A stretch of DNA of 64,000 bases, from the NCBI GenBank assembly GCA_019454045.1, contig SKCR01031852.1, forward strand, positions 22,721 through 86,720. The letters are read 5' to 3'. Positions 7,702 through 51,160 of this stretch are shown in pieces. The stretch's first letter is position 1. Every line of letters starts with the position of its first letter. Both the position numbers and the translations under genes were made by a program. The notes beneath the pieces were generated by a model. It saw only the letters and a list, made by a program, of their open reading frames with translations, did not search any database and was not told the origin of the DNA. This DNA is from Zanthoxylum bungeanum (Eukaryota; Streptophyta; Magnoliopsida; Sapindales; Rutaceae).

Positions 7702-7818
7702 AGTCCGAAATTAATTCCATGTATACCAACCAAGTTTGGATACTGGTTGTTGTACCGGAAGGCATTGTGCCTATTGGTACTATATGAGTCTTCAAGGAAG
7801 ATAAACATGGATGGAAAC
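7702..7818 (+). pseudogene. Copia-1 reverse transcriptase, 5' part before the Tat-1 insertion
   Basis: Codons resembling 'SEINSMYTNQVWILV…PEGIVPIG' and 'VFK…MDGN' of Copia RT end at 7818, where Tat-1 begins. The RT resumes at 19756 after the repeated GAAAC (7814-7818 and 19756-19760), in the expected place for 'Y-K-A-R-L-V-A-K-G'. Confidence 0.8.
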
Positions 7819-10246
7819 TGTAGGACACAGAAACTGGGCGACACATGCCGTTCCGGACTCGCGGCCCGGTTAGGAGTACGGAGTAGCCCGCGGGGGACTA
7901 AAGAGGAGAATAATAAGTCGCCACCCGGTGTGAACCGGAAAAATGATTTAAGGCCGCACTCACCCCTCGAAAGGGAAGACCTCAAACCGTTGGGTTCGGA
8001 ATGGCCTCTTACTTATTTCGTTTGTAATGAATGGATTTGTGCAATATTAACCAAGTCTACTCAACATACATATTGGTCAAAGTAGTCTAAATTCTTATAA
8101 AGCCTAAATCTAGGTTTGCATGCTTCAAAAGTAAACTTTCATTATGACAAACATTCAGCATCACATAAAAGCATATTAAATAAAATACGATTTAGACATG
8201 ATGTAAATCAAACTCCTATTGCAAAATAAAGTAATTAAGTCATGCTAAACATAAAACAACATTCTAATGGCCTAATCATGCTCAAATAAAAGTTTGGATG
8301 AAATGAAATATGTGAATCCTTCGAGTGGTATGGGGCATTGTATCCCGAGTGCAGACTATAATACCGTCCATTCGGATACGGCTATGGAATTTATGTCTGG
8401 GTTTCCATCCAATATACCACAAGAGGGAACACACATTTCACTTATCCGAATCACATCATACACTAATTATTAATTCTCATGCGACGAAAAATAAGTTACA
8501 TGTTTTTCTAAGATAATAATTTATATAATGTAAATTAAATAACATGCTAAACTAATTATTCATGCTAAACATCATAAAACACATTTCCTAAGTTATTTTT
8601 TTCATTCGAAGAAATTCAAACAACATGCTAAACTAATTATTCATGCTAAACATCATAAAACACATTTCCTAAGTCATTATTTCATGTGAAGAAATTCAAT
8701 AATATAAGCCCTCAGGTCTAACCTTTTGTGTCGTCTCTCGAAAGTGCGTTATACGGCCGTCGGAAAGGCTAAAACACCGTGATTCCACCAGTTCGAGGTT
8801 TTGACGTTTTTGCTCGCTGTTTCATCGTTTTATCCGCTGTTTCCACTTCGTTTAGCTGCGATTCAGATCACCACACTTAACTCACTGGTTGGCAGGGAAT
8901 TAGGGACTGTTTTGGTGATGGTTTGGGCATGAATGTGGAGGGCTGAACTGGGCAGTGTGTGCGTGAGTTATGGGGCTAAATAAGGCAGTTTTATGCGTGA
9001 ATATTATAGGCTAAATGAGGCTGATTTAGGTGTGAGTTCCAGGGGCTAAATGAGGCAGTTTATGCGTGAGGATTATAGGCAGTTTATGTGTGTGTTTCGA
9101 AGGTTAAGTGAGGCAGTTTGAGGCGCAAGTTGAGAGGAAGTGAGGGGCTGATTTAGAGGCAGTTAAGGGGCTGATTCAGAGGCAGTTAAGGGGCGTGAAA
9201 AGGATGCTGAATGAGGACTTAATGGGGAGCTGAACTGGGCAGAATATGAGAGCTAAATTGGACAGTTTGTACGTTGGTTCCAGGGGCTGGTTGAAGGTGT
9301 TTTGGGCGTGAGTTTCAGTCTATAATGGGGCAGTTTGGGGTGAATTATGGGGCTGAAATGGAGGGTGTTTTGGGTGTGAATTAGGCAGTGAAGGATGGCA
9401 GTGTTCCAGGCGTGAAGATGATGGGCTGATTTGGAAGCAATGTGCGTGAGTTGTAGGCAGTGAGGGATGGCAGTGTGCGTGAGGATGAGGCAGTGAGGAT
9501 GATGGCTTTGGGCGTGACTTGTAGAGGGAATAAGGGGGCTGTTTTGTGTTCGCTAAATGCAAAGTGTTTGCTTAATGTGTGCTAGGTGTTTCAAGGGAGG
9601 AACATGGTGGTTTATATAGGCAAATAAGGTGAGCATTAATTAGGTAGGCCAAGTGATGGTGAAGGGTAATTAATTTGGTGACTTTTTTTGTTGACAAATG
9701 AAGGAAAAGTGATGGAGCTTTGTTGAAAATGAATAAAGGTTGTGATTAGTGTGTTGAAAATGGATAAAGAGAGGTTATATGGTCATTGGTGTGGGGTACC
9801 AGCATAAATGATGTAGGGTTGTCTTAATAAATGGCTTGGAAAGTTGGTGTCAAGGTAAAAGTGAGGTCAAAGGTGTAAAACAAGCTTGGTAGAAGGGTAA
9901 ATCATGTTTGAATAGTGGATGAAGCGGTGAATTTTGTGTGTTGGGCGTGGGCTTCATGGTTGGTGGGCTTGGTGTTTGATTTATTTTGGTTTCTTGGGCT
10001 TTGGATGTGGGTTTTGGTGTTTAGGTGAGCTTAGAGTGGTTTGCGGGGATTTCGGGCCAAGGATATGCCTCGAAACGAAGATTCAACAAGCAAACTCCAA
10101 GCGAATTCAACGAATTAAAACCAATGATGTGTCAATTCTTGTCCTCTCCTTTCCGACGACCGTTTTCCGCGACTTCCAAGACTTAAAGGTAGTGCCTCCT
10201 TACAAGGCTCATCATCGGGCTGGTATGCAAAAATACAATGCCTACA
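7819..10246 (-). repeat. Tat-1 3' LTR (left in window)
   Basis: A 2428-bp LTR matching 17349-19755 (2407 bp). In element sense it starts TGTAGGCATTG and ends CTGTGTCCTACA. A TATA-like CCTATATAAA lies at 9611-9620 (minus strand); the 5' LTR has the variant GCCTATATAG at 19121-19130. A roughly 70-bp unit around 'aacatgctaaactaattattc' occurs twice in tandem (about 8540-8690) in both LTRs. G/T-rich text around 8900-9560 has degenerate short repeats such as 'aggcagtt' and 'ggggctga'. Confidence 0.93.
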
Positions 10247-10719
10247 GTCGGCCCCACTTTGATGGGATATGTACAGTGTGTGACAGTGACAGTCATATCA
10301 AAATTCGTGCAATGTATTTTTACTTACCGGGCTTGCCAGCTGCCACCTAACTTGCCTGTTGTGCGGAATTAAGTTAATATTGCCGCACCTGGCGTGCTAA
10401 ACCCCGTACCTGAGGTGTCGATGTTGCATCTCCGTACCTAGAGTGCCGCAGTGGTGATGATTGTCCATTTTCGAACCATGCTCCATTTTCGGAGAGTCAT
10501 TTTCGGCATATGATGTGGGTGCTCCATTTTGGAGCGCCATTTTCGGCAGCTGATGTGGTAGCGGTCCATTTCTGAACTGTGATGTGTGAGAATGTGGCTC
10601 ATTTTGAACCGTTACTTGATGAGAGGTGGCACATTTTTGAACCATTACTTGATGAGATGGTCTTTGCCGCCACAAACCTGCAAATACAAAGCAAAAATTA
10701 CATGTATATAATATGTCGT
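10247..10719 (-). other. Tat-1 3' untranslated region next to the 3' LTR, with polypurine tract
   Basis: In element sense the bases just before the LTR read 'caaagtggggccgac' (10247-10261), a plausible polypurine primer for plus-strand synthesis. The rest has scattered single monomers of the AAAATGG-type repeat (10440-10570) and a splice-acceptor-like TTTGCAG at 10678-10684. It is duplicated at 12373-12844. No convincing gene. Confidence 0.65.
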
Positions 10720-11103
10720 TCGGAGTGCCATTTTCGGCATCTGTTGTGTGTGCTCCATTTTGGAGCGCCACTTTCGGCATCTGATGAGTGTGCCCCATTT
10801 TCGGCATCTGATGAGTGTGCCCCATTTTGGAGCGCCATTTTCGGCATCTGATGTGTGTGCTCCATTTTGGAGCGCCATTTTCGGCATCTGATGAGTGTGC
10901 CCCATTTTGGAGCACCATTTTCGGCATCTGATGTGTGTGCCCCATTTTGGAGCGCCATTTTTGACATCTGATGTGTGTGCCCCATTTTGGAGTGCCATTT
11001 TCGGCATCTATTTTGTGTGCCCTATTTTGGAGCGCCATTTTCGGCATCTGATGAGTGTGCCCTATTTTGGAGCACCATTTTCGGCATCTGATGAGTGTTC
11101 CCC
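10720..11103 (-). repeat. 40-bp tandem array, copy 1
   Basis: About ten monomers. 'tcggcatct' or a close variant recurs at 10733, 10773, 10801, 10841, 10881, 10921, 10961, 11001, 11041 and 11081, a 40-bp step except for one 28-bp partial unit. Each monomer holds two AAAATGG boxes in element sense. No monomer contains a stop in any of the three sense frames, giving long overlapping frames with a 40-residue period (three monomers, 120 bp). I regard these as repeat-born frames, not evidence of a protein. Confidence 0.93.
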
Positions 11104-11117
11104 ATTTCGGGCCAAGG

Positions 11118-12372
11118 ATATTATAGGTTAAATGAGGCTGATTTAGGTGTGAGTTCCAGGGGCTAAATGAGGCAGTTTATGCGTGAGGATTATAGGCAGT
11201 TTATGTGTGTGTTTCGAAGGTTAAGTGAGGCAGTTTGAGGCGCAAGTTGAGAGGAAGTGAGGGACTGATTTAGAGGCAGTTAAGGGGCTGATTCAGAGGC
11301 AGTTAAGGGGCGTGAAAAGGATGCTGAATGAGGACTTAATGGGGAGCTGAACTGGGCAGAATATGAGAGCTAAATTGGACAGTTTGTACGTTGGTTCCAG
11401 GGGCTGGTTGAAGGGTGTTTTGGGCGTGAGTTTCAGGTCTATAATGGGGCAGTTTGGGGTGAATTATGGGGCTGAAATGGAGGGTGTTTTGGGTGTGAAT
11501 TAGGCAGTGAAGGATGGCAGTGTTCCAGGCGTGAAGATGATGGGCTGATTTGGAAGCAATGTGCGTGAGTTGTAGGCAGTGAGGGATGGCAGTGTGCGTG
11601 AGGATGAGGCAGTGAGGATGATGGCTTTGGGCGTGACTTGTAGAGGGAATAAGGGGGCTGTTTTGTGTTCGCTAAATGCAAAGTGTTTGCTTAATGTGTG
11701 CTAGGTGTTTCAAGGGAGGAACATGGTGGTTTATATAGGCAAATAAGGTGAGCATTAATTAGGTAGGCCAAGTGATGGTGAAGGGTAATTAATTTGGTGA
11801 CTTTTTTTGTTGACAAATGAAGGAAAAGTGATGGAGCTTTGTTGAAAATGAATAAAGGTTGTGATTATTGTGTTGAAAATGGATAAAGAGAGGTATATGG
11901 TCATTGTGTGGGGTATGGTGTGGGGTACCAGCATAAATGATGTAGGGTTGTCTTAATAAATGGCTTGAAAGTTGGTGTCAAGGTAAAAGTGAGGTCAAAG
12001 GTGTAAAACAAGCTTGGTAGAAGGGTAAATCATGTTTGAATAGTGGATGAAGCGGTGAATTTTGTGTGTTGGGCGTGGGCTTCATGGTTGGTGGGCTTGG
12101 TGTTTGATTTATTTTGTTTCTTGGGCTTTGGATGTGGGTTTTGGTGTTTAGGTGAGCTTAGAGTGGTTTGTGGGGATTTCGGGCCAAGGATATGCCTCGA
12201 AACGAAGATTCAACAAGCAAACTCCAAGCGAATTCACGAATTAAAACCAATGATGTGTCAATTCTTGTCCTCTCCTTTCCGACGATCGTTTTCCGCGACT
12301 TCCAAGACTTAAAGGTAGTGCCTCCTTACAAGGCTCATCATCGGGCTGGTATGCAAAAATACAATGCCTACA
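11118..12372 (-). repeat. Truncated internal copy of the Tat-1 LTR
   Basis: Matches 9001-10246 with a few small indels. In element sense it is the first 1.25 kb of the LTR, from the genuine TGTAGG start at 12372. It lies inside the internal region because of the 2.1-kb duplication, so the element has two and a half LTRs. Confidence 0.9.
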
Positions 12373-12844
12373 GTCGGCCCCACTTTGATGGGATATGTAC
12401 AGTGTGTGACAGTGACAGTCATATCAAAATTCGTGCAATTATTTTTACTTACCGGGCTTGCCAGCTGCCACCTAACTTGCCTGTTGTGCGGAATTAAGTT
12501 AATATTGCCGCACCTGGCGTGCTAAACCCCGTACCTGGTGTGTCGATGTTGCATCTCCGTACCTAGAGTGCCGCAGTGGTGATGATTGTCCATTTTCGAA
12601 CCATGCTCCATTTTCGGAGAGTCATTTTCGGCATATGATGTGGGTGCTCCATTTTGGAGCGCCATTTTCGGCAGCTGATGTGGTAGCGGTCCATTTCTGA
12701 ACTGTGATGTGTGAGAATGTGGCTCATTTTGAACCGTTACTTGATGAGAGGTGGCTCATTTTGAACCATTACTTGATGAGATGGTCTTTGCCGCCACAAA
12801 CCTGCAAATACAAAGCAAAAATTACATGTATATAATATGTCGTT

Positions 12845-13265
12845 CGGAGTGCCATTTTCGGCATCTGTTGTGTGTGCTCCATTTTGGAGCGCCACTTTCG
12901 GCATCTGATGAGTGTGCCCCATTTTGGAGCGCCATTTTCGGCATCTGATGTGTGTGCTCCATTTTGGAGCGCCATTTTCGGCATCTGATGAGTGTGCCCC
13001 ATTTTGTAGCACCATTTTCGGCATCTGATGTGTGTGCCCCATTTTGGAGCGCCATTTTTGACATCTGATGTGTGTGCCCCATTTTGGAGTGCCATTTTCG
13101 GCATCTATTTTGTGTGCCCTATTTTGGAGCGCCATTTTCGGCATCTGATGAGTGTGCCCTATTTTGGAGCACCATTTTCGGCATCTGATGAGTGTTCCCC
13201 ATTTTGAGCGCCATTTTCGGCATCTGATGAGTGTGCCCCATTTTGGAGCACATTTTCGGCATCCG
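12845..13265 (-). repeat. 40-bp tandem array, copy 2
   Basis: About eleven monomers of the same 40-bp unit, with the 40-bp step broken only near the right end (38-bp unit near 13178-13216). It lacks the 28-bp partial monomer present in copy 1, so the two arrays have changed length separately since duplication. Confidence 0.92.
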
Positions 13266-13527
13266 TTGTTGTAGTGGTCCATTTCTTAACCATGCTGATG
13301 AGAGAGTGGTTCATTTTTTAACCGTTGTTGATATGAGAGTGGTCCATTTGCGAACCATTATTGATGCTGATGTGGGCCTCGCCCCCAGAGTGCCATACCC
13401 GGCAAGGCTGATGTTGATGTTGTGGGCCTCGCCCCTGGAATGCCATACCCGACGAAACTGATAATAATGGTGTGGGCCTCGCCCCTAGAATGTCATATTG
13501 CCTCTCATGAGAGAATCTTGATAGCTG
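13266..13527 (-). repeat. Relic units of the GAGGCCCACATCAG-type repeat
   Basis: In element sense three spaced units contain 'gccgggtatggca' and 'ggggcgaggcccaca' (about 13370-13500). These match the 29-bp array and its longer parental unit in Tat-2 (50290-51150). Here the unit stayed at about three copies, whereas in Tat-2 it expanded. Two or three 'gttcgaaatggaccac'-type units lie at 13270-13360. Confidence 0.8.
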
Positions 13528-14240
13528 GACATACTTTTTTCCTCAATGAATGCTTTGCGTCGAAACCTGAGAACCTTCAAAGTACTCGATACAACTCAAA
13601 TCCGACCGTTTGAGTGAATGATCTGAGCTAGACTCCAAGTGTGTGTGTGACGGGGCTCTTTCGCAGCTTAGTCCTTAAGAAAACCAACTCGATGATTTCG
13701 TCTCGGAGAATCGGACCAGTGGGTCTAACCAACCTAGATGTCTGGATCACGCTCTGTGAGTACTTCGTCATACTCAACATGATATGGTCTTCTTCTTTTT
13801 CTTTTGTCTCTTTCTTTTCTTTATTTTCATTTTGAACTTTTTTTTGACACACCTACCCTTTAAGGTAGCATTTCTCCTCATGGTGGTCCTAATACTCGCC
13901 CATGAGTAGCTTCACGCTTATCGGTTATAGGTGGTCTATTTTTTTTTTCATCGGAGAGACTTTTTTTTCGTTTCCAACAACATCATATATCGTAGCATCA
14001 GTAAACCAGGGTGGACATCCAGGCAAACGGTCATTCACTGATCCATCATCTCTTCAACTAGTCACTTTGCCAACCACTCAGGCTTCTACTGCTAGGATCC
14101 CGTAATCAAGTGCTCACGGGTCTAGCTAAGATCAATCCATTCAGAATATCGGACGAGAGCACGTCTCGCACTTATCGTTTCTAAGGTTTCTCCTTTCAGC
14201 ATACAATGTCATCACCGGACATATGTCTAGCCACCAAAGA
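13528..14240 (-). other. 700-bp module shared with the Athila-type element
   Basis: From 'cctcaatgaatgc' to the 'cttatcgtttctaagg' region, this block matches 24719-25432 in order and orientation, both on the minus strand of their element. Shared anchors include 'gtgtgtgtg', 'atgatttcgtctc', 'cctaccctttaaggta', 'ctcctcatggtggtccta' and 'cttcacgcttatcggtta'. No long frame is open. It lies between gag and the 3' LTR in both elements. It is either a captured segment or a conserved 3' module. Confidence 0.85.
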
Positions 14241-14374
14241 TTTCTCATTCTCTGACATTCCTCTTTTCAATTGCTGGTAATTTGGGGCTTCGCCCCCAGG
14301 GGTTCATTTCTGAATATTGCTGGTATTATTTTATATGCTTTCAACTTGCTTGTATTCTACCGCTTTCTCTTTCC

Positions 14375-14620
14375 TTCTTTGAGACCTGCAAACACAAACA
14401 AAACAATAGAATGAAAACATGTGCGTGTGATGTGTAAGTATGCAAGTGTAGAGGTACTCCCTTTTTGTGATGGGTTGGATCCTCATTGTGCTCCTTGTCG
14501 CCATATGTCTTTGGTCGCCCCCTGCTGGTTATCTTTTGTTTGAAATCTGCAAAAACAAAACACAAAACAAGGGATGCAAGTTACGTGTATGCATGTATGC
14601 ATGGATGAATTTCCTATCCT
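14375..14620 (-). other. Two intron-acceptor-like cassettes
   Basis: In element sense there are two similar units, each with ATGCATAC-like text, then a T-rich run, then TTTGCAG (14386-14392 and 14547-14553). Comparable cassettes are at 10678-10684, 12802-12808 and, in Tat-2, 51372-51374. Ogre elements are known to splice an intron inside their genome, so real acceptors are possible. Donor sites were not identified. Confidence 0.45.
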
Positions 14621-14626
14621 ATTGGG

Positions 14627-14899
14627 TTAGGTTTTCTGCCAATTCCCTTGGTGATTGCTCGGTTTTCTCTTCCTCAGGCAAAGTACAACATTAATCGGCT
14701 CGGTGAACTCATTCCTTTCCAAGTCTGACAGTTTCGCTGCCCCGTTTCCCAATTTCTGAATGGCCATTCTACCTTTTCTGCTTGCTTCTTCTAGGAGTTC
14801 TCTGCGTTCCAGATACCGTTGAATATCAGGGTACCAAGGTTGAATACTTTTGTCAAATATCCTCATGTCGTTCAGGTTGAAAGGGAGGGGCTCAGACAT
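14627..14899 (-). pseudogene. Short frame with an integrase-N-terminal-like box
   Basis: A 90-codon minus-strand frame contains PWYPDIQRYLERRELLEEAS. That resembles the W-Y-x-D-I-x-x-Y-L segment just upstream of the zinc finger of Gypsy/Tat integrases. Nothing after it matches the HHCC finger or the catalytic core. It may be the last trace of pol left when this gag-only element formed, or an unrelated small frame. I am not sure. Confidence 0.4.
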
Positions 14900-14971
14900 G
14901 TAAACGAAATGAACATCTTTATTATCATTAAGAACAAAACAAGTTTGAACAAGTAGACAAAACCAATGTCT

Positions 14972-16417
14972 TTAAAGATGCAGGGTTGCAATCAAATAAA
15001 CTAGGAGGAACAACTTCATCATTCGCCTCATGGCCTTCTTCCTTGGCCTAAGGTTATTCACTGTTGTCCTTCTTATCCCCATGAAAGAAACTGGGTGGTT
15101 AAGAGCTTGAAGGACAAAACTTTCAGGCAGGCCGGAGTTGATCATATAAGTGGGTGGTGGAACGGAGTGGTAGTTTGGTGGAGGATTTCTGTGTGTGTTG
15201 GGTTTTTTCTGGATCGGGTATTTTATGGGTGTCAATGAGGTTTTGGATTTCATGTCTAAGGCGGATGCAGTTGTCAGTTTCATGGACTCTCCTCTGATGG
15301 AAGTGACAATATAGGCTCAGGTCAAGGTTATGTGGCACAGGGTTTGGAATTGGTTTGGGCTCTAAAGGTTCTAGAAGTCCTTGTGCCTTCAGCTTTTCGA
15401 ACACCCTTGAAAGAGGCTTACCAAGGTTGGAGAATCGCCTGTTTTTTATGGTAGCGATCTCAGCAGTAGCGGGCTTGGTCTCAGAAGGCCCCCCAAAAGT
15501 CCGCATATTCTGGTTATAGAACTTTCTGTTCTCAGCTTCTTCTTCTTCAATATCCATGACAGTCTCCCTAAACTGTCGGAAATCTACAATCATGGAGGCC
15601 ATTCTTCTTAACTTGCCATAAATAGAGGGCTTAGTGCCCTTGATGATCATTTTGATCTGGTCCTTCTCTGAGGGCCGAGTTTGTATCTTCAAAAGCTGGC
15701 TCCTCCAGCGGTCTACATACTCCTTGAAGCTCTCCTCCGGCTTCTGCTTGATGTTTTCCAAGTCACGGAGTGACAAATCGATCTCCAGGTCTGTAATATA
15801 CTGTTTTAAGAAGGCATCAGCTAGTTCCCTCCAATCTTCCTTAACCTTTTTCTCTAGGTTGTGATACCACACTACAAGTGCTCCCTCAAGAGACATCCCA
15901 AATATTTTCAGCACCTGCTGCTTTGATAAATCCACTGAACTCATAACTGAGACGTACTGGTGGAGATGGACCCTCGGATCCCCATTCCCATTGAACTTGG
16001 CCATATCCGGCATCTTAAACTGAGCTGGCAGCTGCTCCTCAAAAGTCATTGTTTCACAGTCTAGTAAGTCTTCGTCCTTACCTTTCATCTTGCGGGTAAC
16101 CAACTCTACCTGGTCACAGAGTTTTTGTATTTCAGCCTGAGACCCAGCTATCCTCCCCGCGACATATTCTGCTATATCATCATCGAAGATAGGATATCAT
16201 CATTCACCCTGTTTGGAGGCTCTTCACGCCTCTCATTCTCAGATCTACCCCCAGCACGGGGCACAACCATATTAGACATGGCGACAGTGAACGCTTGCAG
16301 TTGTTCAGTCATTTTGGCGAGATTAGCTTCAATCTGGTCCACTCGAGACCCATCGTTGACAGATTTATTCATATTTGCTACCGGCCTTTTGGTGAGTCTC
16401 CATTCTTCCCTAACCAA
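14972..16417 (-). pseudogene. gag: Tat-1 gag (frameshifted)
   Basis: Gag forms the particle and binds element RNA. The frame starts near 16417 (MVREEWRLTK…), shifts near 16180, runs for 326 codons to 15123, then shifts again near 15190 into a frame ending at 14972. The core has AQFKMPDMAKFNGNGDPRVH, the capsid-type W-Y-H-N-L…DW-R-E-L-A-D-A-F-L segment and EESFKEYVDRWR. The C-terminal knuckle is C-H-F-H-Q-R-R-V-H-E-T-D-N-C, the C-x2-H-x4-H-x4-C form of Tat-clade gags. Compared with the intact gag of Tat-2 (48699-50006), the two frameshifts are the main defects. Confidence 0.88.
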
Positions 16418-16463
16418 ACGGGAATCTATGATGGCTTTTAAGACGCAAAAAGGGTTAGCATGA

Positions 16464-17327
16464 TGCGTTTATGCATGACATGTTTGCAATTTATGGAATA
16501 AATAAGCTCATAAAAGAATTTACACTAATTGGCCTGTTATCATTTCAAAGTATTCAATCACACTATTGCGCGGTGCAAACTTGTCCTAGTTGAAGAGGCC
16601 CAACAAGTTCATACTTTTGCGATAACATGACTAAACGACTTCAAATAATAAGTGGTCTAAGCACAAAATGGCCCATCATCATTTTAGAAACTTTTGGCCC
16701 AATTTTCAAAGGACATGAACTTGTCCCAGTTTAAATGGCCCAACAAGTTCACATCTCTTGACAAAAGATCCAACTGAATCCAAATAACGATGGTCCTAAA
16801 CACAAGCATAAATAAATATTTTCTAAGGGTCATATAACTAAGGTTCACATGTAGGTTTCAGGAGTGTAAAAAAAGGCCCTCGCTGATGAAGGATTGTTCA
16901 CAACTAGGACTCCCCACTCAAGGGTTCAAGCGACCAAGTGAACGCACCTTTTTTATACCTTACAGTACGTGCCAACGAGTTATGGTGTGTGACTGACTGT
17001 CAAATGGATTTCCCATTGTAGATTCCCCAGAGGGAGGGTGGAGCGAGGCTCTCTTAAGTACCCAAGCCTCTTAGGCTCTAATCGCTTGGTGTCAGGAATA
17101 AACAACGAGTCCTCCAAATTAGTCTATCACAATGAGCTACGGGTGAATGATTATCTAGGTGCCTTCACAGCTTTTCCTTTAGAAAGGTAGTGAGTGAAGG
17201 GAGACACCAAACCATCACCTAGCCTTAACAATTCCTTTAATTAAACTCCTTAAACCCACAGTAGACATGATTAATTAAAACACAAATCACAAACATTACA
17301 AGATATTATTTCGGGGCCGATTCTCTA
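16464..17327 (-). other. Tat-1 leader between primer site and gag
   Basis: No open frame. It matches the Tat-2 leader (47705-48698). It contains two copies of a unit with 'ggcccaacaagttca' next to 'aacttgtcc(t/c)agtt' (about 16578-16612 and 16715-16754), also double in Tat-2. There is no ORF1 upstream of gag, unlike full Ogre elements. Confidence 0.75.
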
Positions 17328-17345: not shown

Positions 17346-17348
17346 GAC

Positions 17349-19755
17349 TGTAGGACACAGAAACTGGGCGACGCATGCTGTTCCGGGCTCGCGGCCCGGT
17401 TGGGAGTACGGAGTAGCCCACGGGGGACTAAACCGGAGAATAATGGAGTCACCACCCGGCGTGTACCGGAAAAATGATTTAAGGCCGCACTCACCCCTCG
17501 CAAGGGAAGACCTCAAACCGTTGGGTTCAGAATGGTCCCTTACTTATGTCGTTTGTAATGAATGGATTTGTGCAATATTAACCAAGTCTACTCAACATAC
17601 ATATTGGTCAAAGTAGTCTAAATTCTTATAAAGCCTAAATCTAGGTTTGCATGCTTCAAAAGTAAACTTTCATTACGACAAATATTCAGCATCACACAAA
17701 AGCATATTAAATAAAATACGATTTAGACATGATGTAAATCAAACTCCAATTGCAAAATAAAGTAATTAAGTCATGCTAAACATAAAACAACATTCTAATG
17801 GCCTAATCATGCTCAAATAAAAGTTTGGATGAAATGAAATATGTGAATCCTTCGAGTGGTACGGGGCATTGTATCCCGAGTGCAGACCATAATATCGTCC
17901 ATTCGGATACGGCTATGAAATTTATGTCCGGGTTTCCATCCAATATACCATGAGAGGGAACACACATTTCACTTATCCGAATCACATCATACACTAATTA
18001 TTAATTCTCATGCGACGAAAAATAAGTTACATGCTTTTCTAAGTTACTAATTTATATAACGTAAATTAAATAACATGCTAAACTAATTATTCATGCTAAA
18101 CATCATAAAACACATTTCCTAAGTTATTATTTCATTCGAAGAAATTCAAACAACATGCTAAACTAATTATTCATGCTAAACATCATAAAACACATTTCCT
18201 AAGTCATTATTTCATGTGAAGAAGTTCAATAATATAAGCCCTCGGGTCTAACCTTTTGTGTCGTCTCTCGGAAGTGCGTTATACGGCCGTCGGAAAGGCT
18301 AAAACACCGTGATTCCACCAGTTCAAGGTTTTGACGTTTTTGCTCGCTGTTTCATCGTTTTATCCGCTGTTTCCACTTCGTTTAGCTGCGATTCAGATCA
18401 CCACACTTAACTCACTGGTTGGCAGGGAATTAGGGACTGTTTTGGTGATGGTTTGGGTGTGAATGTGGAGGGCTGAACTGGGCAGTGTGTGCGTGAGTTA
18501 TGGGGCTAAATAAGGCAGTTTTATGCGTGAATATTATAGGCTAAATGAGGCTGATTTAGGTGTGAGTTCCAAGGGCTAAATGAGGCAGTTTATGCGTGAG
18601 GATTATAGGCAGTTTAGGTGTGTGTTTCGAAGGTTAAGTGAGGTAGTTTGAGGCGCAAGTTGAGAGGAAGTGATGGGCTGATTCAGAGGCAGTTAAAGGG
18701 CGTGAAAATGGTGCTGAATGGGGGCTTAATGGGGCGCTGAACTGGGCAGAATGTGGGAGCTAAATTGGACAGTTTGTACATTGGTTCCAGGGGCTGGTTG
18801 AAGGGTGTTTTAGGCGTGAGATTTAGGTCTATAATGGGGCAGTTTGGGGTGAATTATGGGGCTGAAATGGAGGGTGTTTTGGGCATGAATTAGGCAGTGA
18901 AGGATGGCAGTGTTCCAGGCGTGAAGATGATGGGCTGATTTGGAAGCAATGTGCGTGAGTTGTAGGCAGTGAGGGACGGAAGTGTGCGTGAGGATGAGGC
19001 AGTGAGGATGATGGCTTTGGGCGTGACTTGTAGAGGGAATAAGGGGGCTGTTTTGTGTTCTCTAAATGCAAAATGTTTGCTTAATGTGTGCTAGGTGTTT
19101 CAAGGGAGGAAAATGGTGGTCTATATAGGCAAATAAGGTGAGCATTAATTAGGTAGGCCAAGTGATGGTGAAGGGTAATTAATTTGGTGACTTGCTTTGT
19201 TGGCAAAGGAAGGAAAAGTGATGGAGCTTTGTTGAAAATGAATAAAGGTTGTGATTATTGTGTTGAAAATGGATAAAGAGAGGTTATATGGTCATGGGTG
19301 TGGGGTAATAGCATAAATGATGTAGGGTTGTCTTATTAAATGGCTAGGAAAGTTGGTGTCAAGGTAAAAGTGAGGTCAAAGGTGTAAAACAAGCTTGGTA
19401 GAAGGGTAAATCATGTTTGAATAGTGGATGGAGGGGTGAATTTAGTGTGTTTGGCGTGGGCTTCATGGTTGGTGGGCTTGGTGTTTGATTTATTTTGGTT
19501 TCATGGGCTTTGGATGTGGGTTTTGGTGTTTAGGTGAGCTTAGAGTGGTTTGCGGGGATTTCGGGCCAAGGATATGCCTCGAAACGAAGATTCAACAAGC
19601 GAACTCCGAGCGAATTCAATGAATTAAAACCAATGATGTGTCAATTCTTGTCCTCTCCTTTCCGACGACCGTTTTCCACGACTTCCACGACTTAAAGGTA
19701 CTGCCTCCTTACGAGGCTCATCATCGGGCTGGTATGCAAAAATGCAATGCCTACA
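17349..19755 (-). repeat. Tat-1 5' LTR (right in window)
   Basis: A 2407-bp LTR, the partner of 7819-10246. It ends in CCTACA at 19755, directly followed by the GAAAC target repeat. It shows small differences from the left LTR: a shorter G/T-rich block near 18660-18720 and several substitutions. The element is therefore not very recent, but its LTRs are still easily aligned by eye. Confidence 0.94.
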
Positions 19756-20964
19756 GAAACATATAAACGTACAAAGCTATGCTTGTAGCCAAAAGGTATC
19801 GCTATCAACATTGTGTCGATTACGACGAAACCTTTTACTCGTTGCCATGATTAAATCCATTTGGATAATGCTTGCTAATGCTGCATGTTTCATTTATGAA
19901 ATATGGCAGCTGAACATCAAAATCCGCTTTCCTTAAACGGAAACCTTTTGGAGGATGTTTATCAACATCCTAACGGTTTTGCCGTACCAAAATAAGCAAA
20001 CAAGGTTTGCAAGTTAAATCGATCCATTTATGGATTGAAACAAGCATTGCGTTCTTGAAACCAGCGTTTTGATGTAGTCATAATGATATATGATTTAATT
20101 CAAAACGAACATGATTCTTGTGTATATAAGGAGGTTAGTGGGAGCGCACTAACAGTGATTGTCCTATATAATGATGACATGTCATTTCTTGGAAATGACA
20201 TTCCCATAATACAATCGGTGAAATCTTGACTTTCATGAAAATTCTCCGTAGACTACTTGGGAGTGACAAACTTTATTCTAGGAATAAGTATCTACTAGGA
20301 TAGATCTAAAATTTGATGGCACTCTTCGAGAACTCGTACATTGAAAAATATGTACGCGACCTGGTGTCTCATATGCTTTGAGCATATGGAGTCACAATCA
20401 GGCCGATCCAGATGATAGTCACTGGATTGATGTTAAGAACATCTTTGAGTATCTTAGACGAACTAAGGATGCGTTCTTAATTTATGGAGAAGGAGAACTT
20501 GAAGTGACTGGGTTCACCGCTGCAAGTTTACAAACTGACAAAGACGACTGTAAATCGCAATAAGGGTAATATATAGTTTGAATAACGAAACAGTGAGCTG
20601 GAAATCTTCCAAGCAAGATATTGTTGCCGAATAAACAACAAAAATAGAATATTGCTGCAGCTGAGGCAGCAATAGAAGCACTTTGGATCTATATAATCCT
20701 AATTGGATTAGGAGTAGTTCTATTAGCAGCCGAGCTAGGCTACATCACAAGCTAAAGAATTAATGGTCTCATCAACGATCCAAGTATATACTTCAACTAT
20801 TCATCTGATTTGTTCAGATCATAAATCGTGGCGATGTGATGATCGAATAAATCGCATCAGATGATAACTTTGCAAATCTGCTGACGAAATCAGTTTCTCA
20901 GCAGAAATTTGAGCAACCCGTACATAGTTCAAGTGTAGGACACTTGAGTGATTGGCTATAGGCC
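19756..20964 (+). pseudogene. Copia-1 reverse transcriptase (3' part) and RNase H
   Basis: After the Tat-1 insert, RT codons resume in several frames ('YQHCVDYDETF…' then IKSIWIMLANAA and the K-V-C-K-L-N-R-S-I-Y-G-L-K-Q-A text near 19990-20045). The catalytic box reads Y-N-D-D at 20167-20178 instead of the usual Y-V-D-D. A 61-codon frame at 20378-20563 (HNQADPDDSHWIDVKNIFEY) and the following 'VSWKSSKQDIVAE' are RNase H. Stops and shifts abolish function. Confidence 0.85.
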
Positions 20965-23116: not shown

Positions 23117-23141
23117 TTAGAGTCACATAGTACCGTTGTTG

Positions 23142-24447
23142 TGATATTTTATATCGTACTGCAAGTGTACGGTATCAAGTTTTAGTAAAATATAAGTGAA
23201 AAAGTATCGAACCCACCGGGATTGTATTCAACTCATACTAAGTACTATAATTAATAACCCTAACTTTATTTAGAAAGCAACAAAATTTCGATTAAAAACT
23301 AAATAATTAAAAAATAAAATGTTTGATAAAGATGAACCAAGATATGAGAGATTCTAGAGACTGATTTCACCTAGCTATCCCATATGTATTTGTTATGCCA
23401 ATCATTTCTTATTCAGTTGTATTGTTTATAAGTCAATAATCCTAAATCATTCCAACTCCCTCTCCCGAGTTCCGAGTGAATATATTTTCAATTACAGACT
23501 TCGATATCCCTATAAAAATCTAATAATTAACAACTCAGTACGCTTTGTGATTCTTTGTTAAAGACTTCAAAGGGATTATATATTCTCCTGAACTCTACAA
23601 ATCTCCTAGGTTATATTCTCTATATCCTATTCAAATTCCCCTCTCCCGAGCGATAGATTCTAAACATTCATCATCTTAATTTATGACCAACAAACTAGAA
23701 ACATTAAACACAATAGAATATAAATAAACTAAATTAAAACTTTATAACAATCAATTGGTAATTAAAACATAGATTCAAGCATTGGCTACATCATCCTCTA
23801 GAATAATAGAGTCAGTTTATGACTAAATAATAAAACAATGAAAGCATGGTCATGAACATATTAGAAATCATTAGAGTTGAAGAAAAAAACTACATGATTA
23901 AATCTGAATCGAATCCCTTCATCTTTGGACGTCACCACCTCGTCTCAATTTTTTGCTCTTCAATCTTCCTCATTGGTTCTCTCTAAAATACGTGTTTTAA
24001 GTCTTGAGTTGTGTATTAGTCTCCATTCTAGGATTTTGGATGAGCTTCTATATTTATAGGGAAGTCTTGGAGTCATTGTGCTAGTAGAACACTGAAAATT
24101 GACGATTCTAGGCTTCTGTTACAGCGTCGCGGTGCCATAATTGGCTTTGCGACACCAAATCCTTGGGAAACATGTATGTAGTTTGTCTGGGCGTCGCGAC
24201 GCTACAATGGGTGTCCCGACGCCATGTTAAATTTTTAGAATAGGTTTTTCTGCATTTTCTGCTTTCCCGCATGTTTTCGATGTGTCCGTAAGGTCCCAAA
24301 ATAAGTCCATTTGCCCCAAGATCCATGTTCCAATGCTTCTTATCAATAAAACATAAAACAAATTACAAAATATATTAAATGATACGAAATATAACAAAAT
24401 AGTAATCTAAAAGTGCGAGAATAAGTGGGTATAAACCGCACTTATCA
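23142..24447 (-). repeat. Athila-1 3' LTR
   Basis: 1306 bp. In element sense it begins TGATAAGTGCGGTTTATACC, a start typical of Athila-type LTRs, and ends AAATATCA. The first 240 bp or so recur at 27995-28232. It contains 'gcgtcgcgacgc'-like GC-rich text near 24190 and an A/T-rich remainder. Confidence 0.82.
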
Positions 24448-24465
24448 AACACCCTCAAACTTAAG
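24448..24465 (-). promoter_or_regulatory. Athila-1 polypurine tract
   Basis: Element-sense 'taagtttgagggtgt' directly precedes the LTR start, as is usual in Athila-type elements. Confidence 0.7.
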
Positions 24466-26169
24466 ATTTTGCTAGTCCCGAGCAAAAGACTTAATAAAAA
24501 CAAACAAACAAAAAGTAACAGAATTATTTAGGCCACTTTCGTAGGGATCGCGGTTGCATTTAGCGAATGCAACAAGCCTTTAAACCCCTAGGCAGCCATA
24601 GTAGACGAGTTATAGTCTCGTGAGGGATTACAGCGACGGCACCCACAAACGTCATTCACAAACATGGAATCATGAAAAAAATAATAAAATAAAATAAAAT
24701 AGTCCTGGTAGTTATGCATAATATTGTCCTCAAAGAATGCCTATCAATGAAATTAGAGAACCTTCAAAATAATCAATGCAACTAAAATCCAAGTTCTTGA
24801 ACAAATTATCTAAGCCAGACTCAAAGTGTGTGTGTGTGTAAATGTCTATTCACAACTCGAATCCTAAGTAAGTTAACTCAATGATTTCGTCTCAAAAATT
24901 GGGATCCGATGGGTCAAACCAACCAAGATATCTCAAAAGTATTATGTAATTGCCTTTCTTTGCTCAGTATGGTATGATTTTTTTTCTTTTTCCTTTTTTA
25001 ATTTTTTTTCAACATACCTACCCTTTAAGGTAACTATTCTCCTCATGGTGGTCCTAACACTCTCCCATAGGTAGCTTCACGCTTATCGGTTATAGGTGGT
25101 TTAACTTTTTTTTTTCTCTTGCTTTCATTTTTTTTTCAATCAATTTTTTTTTCTTTTGTTTTTAACCATACCATCCATCATAACACTAGCAAATCGAGAT
25201 AGACATATAAGCAAACGATCATTCATCGACAATCAATTTCTTCAACTAATCACTTTCCCAACTACCTAAGGTCTTACGGCTAAAAGTATTTTGTTAAGTG
25301 CTTACGAGTCTAACCTAGATCGCCTCCTCAAGACATGAGATAATAGTCAATTGGGCACTTATCGTTTCTAAGATTTCATTATAAAGCAAACAATACTTAT
25401 CATTTGGACCTATGATTTACTACGTAGGACTAAATTTGTTTTTTTAAATAACATGTACTATCACTTCATACACACATCCCCAAACTTAAAATTTACATTG
25501 TCCTCAATGTAAGATAAATATAAAGAAACAAGAGTGAGGAACAACACTACCATGCATGGAGTTGATCAGGCTCATGTTGGTCATAATTTGATTGCGTGAG
25601 TTGTGTGGGTCGTTCTACATGCATAAATACATATGCAAACTAATAAACTATCAAATAGTACACAATAAAATAAAACTAAAGTAACGAAAAATAAAAATAA
25701 AAATGCAAGAATTGCCTTCCCGCTAGCGCTAAGTTTAACGTCTTCAGCCAGACGGGAAACCACCCAAATGGTCATGGTGGCTTCAACATAGCAAACCGGG
25801 TAATCTCATGTGCTTTCTTCTTTGATATCCACCGGTGATTATGACTTGAAAAAGATTACTTGGCTGGCTACGGTAATTTATCCATGGATGCTCATTCAGG
25901 GTCCACTGATTATTGAAATTTCGGACTGCACATGTGGAAAAATTTGCTCGACCATTTTTTGAGCTTTCCAGGGATCATCTTTAGGTGGTCACTGAATTTT
26001 GATTTCCTTCTTTTACGGCACTTTAGAAGTGGTTTTAGGATTGGCTGCGGAGGATCTTTGTTGCATGGCTGCACTATGCTCATTGGTTGTTTGATTACTG
26101 ACTCACCATGCCTGTTGACTTGATTACATGTAGATGGGCCTAACACATGGTCATTATCTCTTGCAACTC
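24466..26169 (-). other. Athila-1 non-coding 3' region, including the module shared with Tat-1
   Basis: 24719-25432 is the homologue of 13528-14240. The rest is A/T-rich with T runs. One 87-codon minus frame at 25910-26173 (basic, KCRKRRKSKF) has no recognised match; it may be a remnant of the region downstream of protease. No RT or integrase text is visible. Confidence 0.7.
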
Positions 26170-26770
26170 CCATATTTACAGTGTCTATAATGCGACATTA
26201 TTCATCACTCTGAGGACTTGACATGGCTTTGAAAACACTGGTGACTTGTTCATCTTGAACTCTCATTTTCAGTTCACCTTTTTGCACATCAATGATCAAC
26301 ATAGCAAACCGGGTAATCGCATGTTGCCAAGAACGGTCTCCCAAGGATGATTGGGACATCATTATACTATTCTATATCAAGAACAAGGAAGTCGACATGG
26401 AATTAGAACTTATCCACCTTAACCAAGACATCCTCTACTATTCCTCGTGGGTAGGTGAGGGATCTATATGCTAATTCTAATGTGATGGTGGTTGGCTTTG
26501 CCTCTCATATGCCCAACTGTTTGTAAATGGATAAAGGCATGAGATTGATACTTGCCCCCAAATCGCATAGTGTCTTACCAAAGTATCGATTTCCAATAGT
26601 GCACAGTATGATAAATCTGTCAAGATCCTTCAAGTTTAGAGGAAGTTTCTTCTGTATAATGGCATTGTACTCCTCTGTGAGTGCTACTGTTTCAAACTCT
26701 GTCAGCTTCATCTTCTTAGACATCACCTCATTCATAAACTTCACATAATTGGGCATCTGTTCCAAAGCTT
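26170..26770 (-). pseudogene. Athila-1 retropepsin-like protease
   Basis: The minus frame 26505-26765 carries L-C-D-L-G-A-S-I-N-L-M-P-L-S, the Athila-type protease active site (D-L-G-A-S in place of D-T-G-S). Further left one reads SLTYPRGIVEDVLVKVDKF and VPIILGRPFLAT across stops. The protease would cut the gag-pol polyprotein. It is broken by several stops and shifts. Confidence 0.82.
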
Positions 26771-26848
26771 CTACGAAAAGGGAATGTTGATATGGATCTT
26801 TTTAAGGATATCTAGAAATTTAGCAAACTGAGCATCTTATTTCTTCTT

Positions 26849-28005
26849 TTAAAAGCGCTGAGGGTACGACAAATGTGTCTTTAGGATGGGTGGTGGCTTA
26901 TATGGAGGAGCTATTGCACTGTTCTCTTCTTCTGTCACTGTTTCCTCTTGAAGTGCCGCTTCTTTTTCTTTACTACCTAAATCCTTATGACTATCTCTAA
27001 TCTCTTTCCCACTCATGAGGGTAATGGCCTGACACTGCTCCATAGGATTAACCTCAGTATTATTAGGAAATGTCCCTTTCTGTTGATTAGCCTTGGAAGA
27101 TTGCACTTCTAAGGACTTCATTGTTACCCCTATATTACCCATGTGTGTTTCAACATTGTCCAGCATCGACTGATTCTTCTCAAACCTCTTTGAAGTTTTA
27201 GCAACAAACGTGCTCATGAGGTCTTCTAATGATGGTTTCTGCCAAACTCTTTGATTATTGAATCCAGGAGGAGGTTGTAAGACATTCTATGTGTTAGCAT
27301 ATGACAAGTTCATATGATAATAGTTAGGCATATGATTGCCTCTATAGTCATTGAAGTTTCAATTGTTCACATATTGGACTTGTTCATATCCCCCGTCAGG
27401 TAAGATCATTCTATTAGCAGTAGTAGCTTCAATAGATGGTTGGCCCTATTGATTGGTCAATACTGCTAGATGAGTCGTGAGGGTTAACACTTGAGCTGTA
27501 AGTGCAACCATAAGATCCACCTCGTATAAACCAGCCATCTTAGGCACACTGGTGCATTCACTTGGCCATTGGAAATTATTAATGGCCATCTCATCTAGCA
27601 GAGCATAGGCATTTTCGGCAGATTTCTTGAACTTGATTTCTCTAGCAGCTGCATCGACCATGATCCTGTTTGGACCATTCAACCCATTGTAGAATAACTG
27701 AATCTGAACTCAGTCTTCAAAATTATGTTGTGGGCACCTTATAAGTATATCTTTAAAGCGCTCCAAAGCCTCGTACAGATTCTCAGTCTCCGACTACCTA
27801 AATATGCTAATTTCTGTTCTCAGTTTAGCTGATTTAGTTGGTGGAAAGAACCTCGCAAGAAATATTGTAGCCATATCCTGTCATGTCATGATGCTCCCCA
27901 TCTGGATAGATTACAGCCAACCCATTGCCTTGTCTCTTAACGAGAATGGGAACAAGCGTAGCCTGATGGTCCCTTTGATAACGCCATTCATCTTGATCCC
28001 GCGAT
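26849..28005 (-). pseudogene. gag: Athila-1 gag (fragmented)
   Basis: Three minus-strand pieces in order: GVIKGTIRLRLFPFSLRDKA (about 27911-27990), MNGPNRIMVDAAAREIKFKK…ENAYALLDEMAINN (27446-27682) and MSTFVAKTSKRFEKNQSMLD with a Q/K/E-rich tail (26849-27217). The first is the start of the Athila gag core. The N-terminal part is missing because the frame runs straight into LTR sequence near 28000. Confidence 0.8.
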
Positions 28006-28232
28006 GCCATGCTAAATTTTTAAAATAGGTTTTTCTGTGTTTTCTGCTTTCCTGCGTGCTTCCGATGCGTCCGTAAGGTCCCAAAACAAGTCCATTTGCC
28101 CCAAGATCCATGTTCCAATGCTTCCTATCAATAAAACATAAAACAAAATACAAAATACATTAAATAATACGGAATCTAACAAAATAATAAGCTAAGAGTG
28201 CGGGAATAAGTGGGTATAAATCACACTTATCA
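27995..28232 (-). repeat. Athila LTR 5' fragment lying between two Athila bodies
   Basis: Matches 24210-24447, the first 240 bp of the LTR in element sense, ending TGATAAGTG at 28232. It serves as the 3' LTR start of the pol-bearing body to the right and touches the truncated gag to the left. Confidence 0.8.
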
Positions 28233-28543
28233 ACTATTATCCGCTATTTAACGAGGGTGTAAAACTCTGAAAAAAACAAAAATGCTGCAAAACACAAGGA
28301 AAAAAATAGAAATTAGACAAAAATAAAAGAAAATAAAATAAAATAACAGCTTACATCAATCACAGTACATTGGGTTTGAAAGGAAAAAATTCTTGAAAAT
28401 TTGAACACTCCAAAAAATGGTTTCAGACTATGGGTAAACGTGCTTCCCAATAAATGGGCCATTCCATTTGGATTTTAATTTTCTAGGAAATAAGTGAGAT
28501 GAGAATTATAAAGTAAATTTTTTTGACCAATTTCAAATGTTTT

Positions 28544-29242: not shown

Positions 29243-29464
29243 CTTTTGACAATTTTCACAAGTTTTGCAGAAAGCATGTGTATCTTTATATAGGGTGCCC
29301 GAATAAAATCCATATTGTAAGATTTTTGCAGTGTTTTTTTAGACGAGAAGTGATCTCCGCATGCTTTTGAATGATAGAACTGAATAAACACCACTTATCT
29401 CATTGTCCGGTGTGCATTGTCGGAAAATCTGATCAGGACAATACTTGAACAAATATGGATTATC

Positions 29465-29776: not shown

Positions 29777-30059
29777 ATATCTAATAGCAGTATGGTCAGA
29801 ATAAACAACGGTTGATGAACCAATTAAATATAATCAAAATTTATCCAATGCAAATATTACAACAAATAACTCTTTTTCTGTGGTAGTGTAATTCATTTGT
29901 GCACTGTTTAAAGTTCTACTTGCATAATAAATTACATACGGCTTACCTTCCTATATCTGTCTTAATACTGCGTCAACTGCATAATCACTGGAATCACACA
30001 TTAGCTCAAAAGGAAAAGACCAATCGAGGGTAAATGATAGAGGCAAAAGTTAAAAGACT

Positions 30060-50006: not shown

Positions 50007-50289
50007 GCCAAGAAAGAATGCAATATTGCGAATGATGAAATCATCCCTCCTAGTCTATTTGATCATGCATTTTTAATATAGACATTGACTTAGTCTACAT
50101 GTTCGAATCATTTTTAAATGATAATAAAGACATTTTTGGCTGAATCTCTTATGCAATATGAGTATATTTGAGAAAAACATTCAACCTTGGCACTATGAAA
50201 TTCAGTGATGTTTAGAACACGGGGAATCTTCGGGAGCAACAACAGTACAGTCAGTCTCAGAAATTAATCAGTATCAGTTTGGAGATGAA
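50007..50289 (+). other. Spacer after Tat-2 gag
   Basis: A/T-rich, no frame, no pol motif. It leads into the repeat arrays. Confidence 0.6.
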
Positions 50290-50975
50290 TCCCAGGGCTG
50301 AGGCCCACATCAGCATCAGTGTAGTAGCTGAGGCCCACATCAGTTACAGTTTGGGGATGAGTCACAGGGCCGAGGCCCGCATCAGTATCAGCTTGGGGGC
50401 GAGGCCCACATCAGTTCAGTATCAGTTCTGCCGGGAATGGCATTATGTGGGATAAGGCCCGTATCAGTATCAGTCTGGAGGCGAGGCCCATATCAGTATC
50501 AGTCTGGGGGCGAGACCCATATCAGTATCAGTCTGGGGGCGAGGCCCATATCAGTATCAGTGTTGGGGCGAGGCCCATAGCAGTATCAGTCGTGGGGCGA
50601 GGCCCGTATCAGTATCAGTCTGGGGGCAAGGCCCATATCAGTATCAGTCTGGGGACGAGGCCCATATCAGTATCAGTCTGGGGGTGAGGCCCATATCAGT
50701 ATCAGTCTGGGGGCGAGGCCCATAGCAGTATCAGTCTTGGGGCGAGGCCCATAGCAGTATCAGTCTAGGGGCGAGGCCCATATCAGTATCAGTCTGGGGG
50801 CGAGGCCCATATCAGTATCAGTCTTGGGGCGAGGCCCATAGCAGTATCAGTCTTGGGGCGAGGCCCATAGCAGTATCAGTTGGGGGCGAGGCCCACATCA
50901 GCATCAGTCTTGGGGCGAGGCCCATATCAGTATCAGTTTGGGGCGAGGCCCATGTCAGTCTCGGTCTGGGGGTGA
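50290..50975 (+). repeat. 29-bp tandem array
   Basis: About 18 regular units from 50445, with irregular units before. The unit reads GGCGAGGCCCATATCAGTAT followed by CAGTCTGGG. The step is 29 bp (for example 50471, 50500, 50529). Units alternate between ATATCAG and ATAGCAG forms. All sense frames are open over long parts, giving a 29-residue periodic translation (three units, 87 bp). Confidence 0.94.
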
Positions 50976-51160
50976 GGCCCATGTCAGCATCAGTTTCTGC
51001 CGGGTATGGCGTTCTGGGGGGCGATGCCCACATCAGTTCAGTATCAGTTCTGCCGGGTATGGCATTCTGGGGGGCGAGGCCCACATTGGTTCAGTATTAG
51101 TTCTGCCGGGTATAGTACTCTGGGGGCGGGGCCCACATCATTATCAGTAACGGTTCGGAA
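50976..51160 (+). repeat. Longer parental units of the 29-bp repeat
   Basis: Three units of about 58-60 bp with TCTGCCGGGTATGGC, 'ggggggcgaggcccaca' and 'ttcagtatcagt'. They correspond to the three relic units in Tat-1 (13370-13500), so they probably represent the state before the 29-bp core expanded. Confidence 0.82.

Follow-up and report, generated by a model that had tools for sequence, protein, structure and literature searches.

Mammalian transport elements, among them the constitutive transport element (CTE) of Mason-Pfizer monkey virus, lie near the 3′ end of their host retroelements, between the coding region and the 3′ long terminal repeat (LTR). In a review, the RNA transport element (RTE) of intracisternal A particles (IAP) and the musD transport element (MTE) appear as structured cis-acting RNAs in the sense strand of LTR retroelements; it also states that there is no direct study of RNA export in plant LTR-retrotransposons and that introns of Ogre elements are functional (PMC12786077). 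Here we describe a noncoding RNA module in Zanthoxylum bungeanum, in a 64-kb window (64,000 nucleotides of contig SKCR01031852.1, the whole stretch of DNA analysed), where two LTR-retrotransposons, Tat-1 and Athila-1, share it and a third, Tat-2, lacks it. These names are kept from an earlier reading of the letters of the window, hereafter the sequence-only reading, and we take the Tat and Athila assignments from that reading and from gag, protease and integrase motifs. We consider it likely, from comparison of predicted folds among many copies, that the module is a structured cis-acting RNA that passed once, long ago, from one lineage to the other and was then kept by selection. Like the transport elements, it stands before the 3′ LTR and has a conserved sense-RNA structure, the latter by covariation only; it differs in being longer and rod-like and in belonging to a plant, and a role in export is suggested here by analogy.

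Other described systems share some of these features. Different elements with a common structured 3′ end are known from the stem-loops of long interspersed elements (LINEs) and their partner short interspersed elements (SINEs) (PMC5135761, PMC6510757), and a common recognition machinery is plausible there; here, by contrast, the elements bear LTRs, the RNA is far larger and each family has its own gag. Distant Athila families of Arabidopsis swap pieces, and many of the recombinants are non-autonomous, but the swaps described in that study concern gag, pol, env or the LTR inside Athila (PMC2410132), whereas the piece described here is noncoding and common to Tat and Athila. Those two lineages are set by phylogeny of reverse transcriptase (RT), RNase H and integrase, an additional RNase H marking Tat (PMC6317226, in part). 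Retand, a Tat-clade element, has a long and often repeat-bearing region downstream of pol, described in the available text as carrying tandem repeats and antisense open reading frames between pol and the 3′ LTR (PMC11963269); the module, unlike that region, has no open antisense frame and has an RNA fold in common with Athila. The hairpins of PMC11410651, as far as its available text goes, are synthetic constructs. Among the titles and abstract beginnings searched, none describes a structured RNA common to Tat and Athila or a rod of this kind in a plant LTR element.

The Tat-1 and Athila-1 modules form a single collinear plus/plus blastn match (13530–14190 and 24717–25377, from a comparison of 13000–14700 with 24200–25900), with 67.1% identity over 693 columns and an E-value of 4.3e-57, and a wider local alignment scores 590.5 against 86.4 ± 11.0 for 500 dinucleotide shuffles (maximum 142). 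The sequence-only reading had aligned the two blocks in the same order and orientation, between coding region and 3′ LTR in both hosts, and both points hold; the limits that it gave at 14240 and 25432 are slightly generous, as the similarity ends at about 14232 and 25410. Upstream beyond the homologous cores (13507–14232 and 24694–25410), identity drops to 46% per 50 columns. Outside the module, Athila 22900–30500 matches neither Tat-1 nor Tat-2 by blastn at E 1e-2, nor does tblastx link it to Tat-2 at that threshold; by tblastx against Tat-1, the one further match is an isolated 24-amino-acid piece that bears only the joint E-value of its group. Tat-2 has no blastn match to either module copy, and a module profile run over the window finds two copies only, in addition to the Tat-1 copy's own arms on the opposite strand, so that the absence from Tat-2 claimed earlier is borne out.

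The module is noncoding, with 9 to 27 stops in each of the six frames of both copies, and a coding role is ruled out by the breaks in every frame. Nor is it a described Rfam family: Rfam gives 0 matches across the whole window and, at a lax threshold over 13300–14400, only two matches (E 0.5 and 4.8), both of which score much lower than the gathering cutoffs of their families. No match was found in the plasmid collection; a 22-mer had 0 matches in viral contigs, where neither protein had a confirmed relative, and prokaryote genome contigs gave 0 for a 21-mer. Between 13507–14283 and 24694–25461, 125 sites are G/C in Tat and A/T in Athila and 47 are the reverse, a skew that fits methylation decay of an older Athila copy. 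The module and the beginning of the Athila LTR (24447) have the 9-mer GATAAGTGC in common, and GATAAGCGTG lies within the apical hairpin.

Both hosts lie on the minus strand, so that the element-sense module is the reverse complement of the window; this orientation matters because the shared fold is stronger in the element-sense strand. The module is a long quasi-palindrome whose 5′ part is predicted to pair, in the sense strand, with its 3′ part, and the predicted sense RNA is an imperfect rod of about 750 nucleotides whose arms are paired, whose internal loop is rich in A and whose apical hairpin has about 94 nucleotides. In the Tat-1 copy, the arm-to-arm score is 96 against 39.8 ± 6.8 for shuffled sequences (0 of 1,000 as high), the outer ends pair together, and whole-copy self-complementarity is reached by 0 of 300 shuffles; its 3′ arm is also recognized, on the opposite strand (13518–13635, E 2.6e-6), by profile positions 15–133, which belong to the 5′ end. 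The Athila-1 arms score 71.5 against 45.4 ± 6.6, with 1 of 1,000 shuffles as high. Both sides of the internal loop are rich in A in the sense strand (pooled A fraction 0.63 for Tat-type copies and 0.69 for Athila-type ones), whereas in a plain inverted repeat of DNA an A-rich side would face a T-rich one; this composition therefore looks like that of an internal loop in RNA. The apical hairpin is 92% conserved between Tat-type and Athila-type copies, although the 8 hand-picked copies described below owe part of this conservation to their selection by a 20-mer. The minimum free energy (MFE) of the Tat-1 copy has a z-score of −6.1 in the sense and −3.0 in the antisense strand, against −2.95 to +2.91 for 17 host windows of equal length in the sense strand. 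Taken singly, sequences reveal the predicted fold clearly in the Tat-1 copy only.

Comparison of many copies supports the fold in both lineages. One set comprises 58 copies, 28 of 40 scored matches to the Tat copy (L001–L028) and 30 of 40 to the Athila copy (L029–L058), each group including its window copy; a second, used for the tree and the fold, comprises 24 copies, 16 of the 58 and 8 further ones. The 24 copies fold jointly in the sense strand at −93.4, against −34.4 ± 5.0 for 60 shuffled alignments (z −11.8). This fold comprises 161 pairs, in which 96.1% of the cells are paired; 31 of the pairs covary and 55 show one standard type only. The antisense fold reaches −46.6 against −30.8 ± 5.2 (z −3.0, 86 pairs). 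For the 58 copies, the joint sense fold has −69.0 kcal/mol against −28.3 ± 4.3 (z −9.6) and the antisense fold −20.7 against −14.4 ± 3.6 (z −1.8), each with 24 shuffled alignments. The rod fold is new relative to the sequence-only reading, which had proposed RNA structure prediction as a check; the 24-copy alignment answers with a predicted, conserved sense-strand rod.

The pairs are also kept between the families. Each of the 137 joint pairs of the 58 copies was assigned to a class where more than half of the comparisons agreed: 94 pairs did not change, 25 changed at one partner but still pair, 17 changed at both partners and still pair (compensatory), 0 are broken and 1 belongs to no class; when partners are slid by 1 or 2 columns, 0–2 are compensatory and 88–98 broken. 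These pairs come from the alignment on which they are counted; refolding of 40 shuffles gives a mean of 84.7 pairs and 7.5 compensatory (maximum 12). To avoid such circularity, a further test derived the structure from the 28 Tat copies only and permuted the Athila changes between paired columns with the same base, one copy in four being counted (7 Tat and 8 Athila): the Tat-derived pairs show 23 compensatory changes in the Athila copies against 10.8 ± 2.7 and 39 broken pairs against 55.0 ± 3.8, and 0 of 400 permutations are as extreme. A decaying inverted repeat should give G–U and A–C changes equally often, so that an excess of G–U favours RNA over DNA as the paired form; Tat Watson–Crick pairs become G–U 26 times and A–C 9 times in Athila copies. 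Variants inside the families, at pairs common to both strands, are even (G–U to A–C 24:21 and 22:24), and these changes are mostly decay after insertion. For the window pair alone, 165 of 211 pairs are kept against 150.7 ± 4.6 (p 0.0015) and 144 inverted-repeat pairs against 126.4 ± 6.6 permuted (p 0.006), both against a null that is biased by inverted-repeat decay, and compensatory changes are not significant (18 against 13.0 ± 3.0, p 0.07).

Several results weigh against a selected sense-strand rod. The Athila-1 copy taken whole is no more self-complementary than shuffled sequence (289 of 300 as high), and its MFE z-scores (−1.8 sense, +0.3 antisense) lie inside the range of the host windows; the apical hairpin is near-equal on the two strands in Tat-1 (z −2.7 sense, −2.6 antisense) and weak in Athila-1 (−1.2 and −0.3). 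Within families the antisense fold is significant too (Tat −7.8 sense and −5.5 antisense; Athila −3.7 and −2.9), and Tat-derived antisense pairs also pass the permutation test (21 compensatory against 11.1 ± 2.6); an antisense signal is expected, because both strands have Watson–Crick pairs in common. The G–U to A–C ratio is 12:3 at both-strand pairs (p 0.018) and 5:2 and 9:4 elsewhere (p 0.23 and 0.13), and 50 further Watson–Crick pairs become other mismatches. In the window pair alone the Tat copy has a ratio of 14:15 and the Athila copy one of 37:23, so that the G–U excess is clear only with more copies, and the four-arm test on that pair finds 14 covarying against 5 cross columns. Every copy comes from one genome, and each was selected either because it resembles a window copy or because it contains an exact 20-mer.

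That 20-mer, from the apical hairpin, occurs 14,049 times (7,075 + 6,974) in the searched genome of 3.96 Gb and 51,709 contigs, and its reversed control 0 times. From 100 of these places that were listed, the 8 further copies were hand-picked; by module, four are Tat-type and four Athila-type, the labels throughout the 24-copy set being those of the better-matching module. Their surroundings are Tat gag (L072), integrase-C-terminus-like sequence followed by Tat-1-like sequence at 69% (L073), Tat-1-like sequence before the module (L078), Athila gag (L075), Athila integrase upstream with a polypurine tract and LTR start downstream (L077), and an Athila flank of some 45–75 bp only (L074 and L076). 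Host sequence agrees with the module label in 23 of the 24 copies; the flank of the exception, L071, lies outside the comparison. In three Athila copies (L052, L054 and L055) an inverted Tat LTR end is joined at one and the same window-equivalent position, 24581; these copies are probably duplicates of one nested insertion.

Such regular surroundings bear on the idea that an independent DNA transposon, a miniature inverted-repeat transposable element (MITE) or a foldback element, inserted into both hosts. It would account for the module being an imperfect inverted repeat, but the module has one place per family: Athila-element matches extend past it in 30 of 30 loci, window copy included, and in 26 of 27 further copies the Tat-1 match continues for at least 85 bp past one or the other end of the module (for 17 bp in the remaining copy, L027), while 7 of the 8 copies drawn by the 20-mer stand in Tat or Athila context. 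Its outer ends are unlike between the two window copies, and no target-site duplication is seen there by eye; thus neither the common terminal repeats and duplications of a MITE or foldback element, at the two window copies, nor many unrelated sites, at the loci examined, were found. A transposon with its own ends, the finding that the sequence-only reading had set against its own view, did not turn up among the copies examined, and we regard this origin as barely credible.

Both hosts in the window look, by sequence, like members of pol-less families, in line with their earlier description as non-autonomous, and both have two LTRs, a replicated family and part of pol missing. Tat-1 consists of gag and a short pol remnant, and tblastn with the RNase H and integrase pieces of the window finds no match in 8 of 8 longer Athila loci. 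Of these, L061 and L062 run from LTR to LTR in the order LTR–gag–protease–module–LTR; in the Tat loci L067–L070 the pol remnant is present, with gag pieces in 3 of the 4. A function special to non-autonomous elements, which had been raised as a possibility, is nevertheless not supported by the genome search for the module beside pol, in which copies adjoin integrase in both lineages (L081 with L077, and L083 with L073). The integrase piece of L083, which we take to be one from its motif, aligns to the Athila integrase C-terminus with a score of 79.5 against −12.4 ± 9.0 for shuffles, and residues 74–114 of the Tat-1 frame at 14627–14971 match the end of the L083 integrase C-terminus. Pol-bearing hosts, to judge from these pieces, thus exist in both lineages, although the families in the window look pol-less.

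The history of the module can be traced against that of its hosts. In a tree of the 24 modules, one branch with 100/100 support parts Tat-type from Athila-type copies, and no module of one type falls among the other. In the pol-bearing pair, the integrase C-termini are identical at 26 of 95 residues (27%), their DNA is at chance (z 0.8) and the stretch from the integrase end to the module is barely above it (z 2.1), against z 55.7 for the loci with their modules. These values show the Tat and Athila hosts to be distant by sequence, and the exchange between lineages that had been proposed earlier fits them. A recent capture fares worse, since the single branch indicates one old event with no later swapping seen. 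Had these two elements, or their immediate families, switched templates recently, the module would need no function, and distant Athila families do recombine in Arabidopsis, according to the study cited above (PMC2410132). The modules are, however, 33% diverged against 95.4% identity for the Tat-1 LTRs, the types are not cross-nested among the 24 modules, and compensatory evolution takes time and selection, which makes a recent switch highly improbable. LTR pairs are 95.4% identical in Tat-1, 98.8% in L067, 95.5% in L069, 86.4% in Athila L061 and 82.2% in L062, and all five measured pairs are younger than the module split.

Vertical inheritance would place the module in a common ancestor of Tat and Athila and keep it recognizable by strong structural constraint. 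It agrees with the two clean groups of modules and with the better conservation of paired than unpaired arm columns (0.736 against 0.591, for pairs taken from the same alignment). Against it stand the integrase comparison and the intervening stretch, both near chance while the loci with modules are not, the lack of the module in Tat-2, and the identity of even the unpaired arm positions, which is 59% across the two groups, 84% among Tat-type copies and 79% among Athila-type ones. That same 59% cuts the other way as well, since it leaves room for vertical descent. Descent under constraint is possible but on balance unlikely, and one old exchange followed by separate descent appears to fit best. 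Array pieces of the Tat-2 type flank the Tat-1 module on both sides (partly by eye), and an array fills the same place in Tat-2; because of this, there are hints that Tat was the recipient.

Under the reading that we favour, a structured RNA exchanged once, genomic RNA would fold into the imperfect rod of about 750 nucleotides, with paired arms, A-rich internal loop and conserved apical hairpin, as covariation suggests. A single old exchange would have brought the module from one lineage into the other, with recombination between RNAs packaged together as the most likely route, and each lineage would have kept it, in pol-bearing and deleted elements alike, under the selection for sense-RNA base pairing that the statistics show. 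We infer that the module acts in genomic RNA, where its job would be the handling of full-length RNA through a factor common to both lineages. Nuclear export of unspliced RNA is the first candidate, one that we put forward tentatively and at less than even chance, by analogy with RTE and MTE: a host ligand is likelier than Gag because the gags of the hosts have no blastn or tblastx similarity, and such a ligand, with a position near the 3′ LTR, points to export.

The main functional alternative is a packaging or dimerization signal, by which non-autonomous elements would use the particles of autonomous partners. Both window elements look pol-less, and SINEs with the 3′-end stem-loop of a partner LINE offer a known parallel (PMC5135761, PMC6510757). 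Yet each family has its own gag, without DNA or tblastx similarity to the other, and the module is also found in pol-bearing copies; both points make a common Gag ligand less likely than a common host factor, and packaging, by analogy, seems somewhat unlikely. The rod might also be a source of double-stranded RNA, or a decoy, that feeds or misleads the small-RNA machinery of the host. A long imperfect hairpin is a plausible Dicer-like substrate, and plant pararetroviruses have an analogous leader, long and structured. A decoy would need pairing only, yet the sequence of the apical hairpin is conserved between the groups, and such a role looks quite improbable. A paper on export of the plant pararetrovirus leader is cited in PMC12786077.

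Table 1 Features of the Tat-1, Athila-1 and Tat-2 elements in the window.
Feature	Position (strand)	Remarks
Tat-1 module, homologous core	13507..14232 (−)	13488–14260 with outer paired ends
Rod, 5′ arm, Tat-1 copy	13985..14260 (−)	limits approximate
Rod, A-rich unpaired internal-loop side, 5′, Tat-1 copy	13940..13984 (−)	
Rod, apical hairpin, Tat-1 copy	13846..13939 (−)	best conserved piece
Rod, A-rich unpaired internal-loop side, 3′, Tat-1 copy	13790..13845 (−)	
Rod, 3′ arm, Tat-1 copy	13488..13789 (−)	limits approximate
Athila-1 module, homologous core	24694..25410 (−)	about 24675–25440 with outer ends
Apical hairpin, Athila-1 copy	25010..25107 (−)	predicted fold as in Tat-1 copy
Tat-1 gag and short pol remnant	14627..16468 (−)	upstream of module; Retrotrans_gag E 1.9e-13 at 15123–16196
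Tat-1 LTR, 3′ side	7817..10247 (−)	95.4% to 17347–19756
Tat-1 LTR, 5′ side	17347..19756 (−)	paired with 7817–10247
Athila-1 gag and protease pieces	26505..27286 (−)	upstream of module; identity presumed
Athila-1 LTR, 3′ side	23141..24447 (−)	start TGATAAGTGC; two near full-length LTRs in L061 match
Polypurine-like motif and short palindrome	25475..25510 (−)	just upstream of Athila module; by eye
Polypurine-like motif abutting Athila LTR	24448..24468 (−)	downstream of module; by eye
Tandem array in Tat-2	50267..50994 (+)	in the place of the module

The surroundings of the module show further features. Two polypurine-like motifs bracket the Athila module, the upstream one with a short ACATTG...CAATGT palindrome; the downstream motif with the LTR start is found in L082, and a similar upstream motif seems to be present at the end of L081 (in translation only). 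The Athila-1 protease piece matches 281 proteins at E ≤ 1e-3, and among the 120 matches listed the entries that bear an organism are from plants; 16 gag relatives were found, one of which carries a name, from Vicia. A remnant of Athila RNase H/integrase at 28868–29833 terminates in an LTR piece of 232 bp (28002–28233) that is joined directly to Athila-1 gag, as if two elements had one common LTR and the intervening pieces had been lost. A 29-bp direct repeat (97%; 26296–26324 and 25783–25811) places downstream sequence within the Athila-1 protease region, like filler DNA.

In Tat-1, part of the LTR and the 3′ untranslated region are tandemly duplicated (9001–11107 and 11118–13204, 97.4%), including a 40-bp minisatellite. 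A hammerhead core from CTGATGAG in this minisatellite was considered and rejected, since the partner motif lies on the opposite strand (by eye only). Where Tat-1 has the module, a 29-bp unit that contains a GGGC-GAG-GCCC mini-palindrome is repeated about 19 times in Tat-2 (50455–50994). Segments resembling 3′ splice sites, T-rich and then GCAG, lie upstream of the Tat-1 module at 14385–14580 (by eye) and downstream of the Tat-2 array at 51340–51376.

The noncoding regions of large plant retrotransposons are easily taken for filler; here, such a region appears to hold a selected, base-paired architecture at high copy number. It is possible, if somewhat doubtful on analogy, that the module represents a new class of plant retrotransposon RNA element, recognized by a host factor and exporting or sorting full-length RNA. 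If so, a host ligand, and not the element's own Gag, would let the rod cross between Athila and Tat and serve both, pol-less elements included. The comparison also suggests that structured RNA modules, besides coding pieces or LTRs, can move between lineages, and it poses a concrete, testable question: which RNA signals let plant retrotransposons, those without pol among them, export their genomic RNA from the nucleus or load it into particles.
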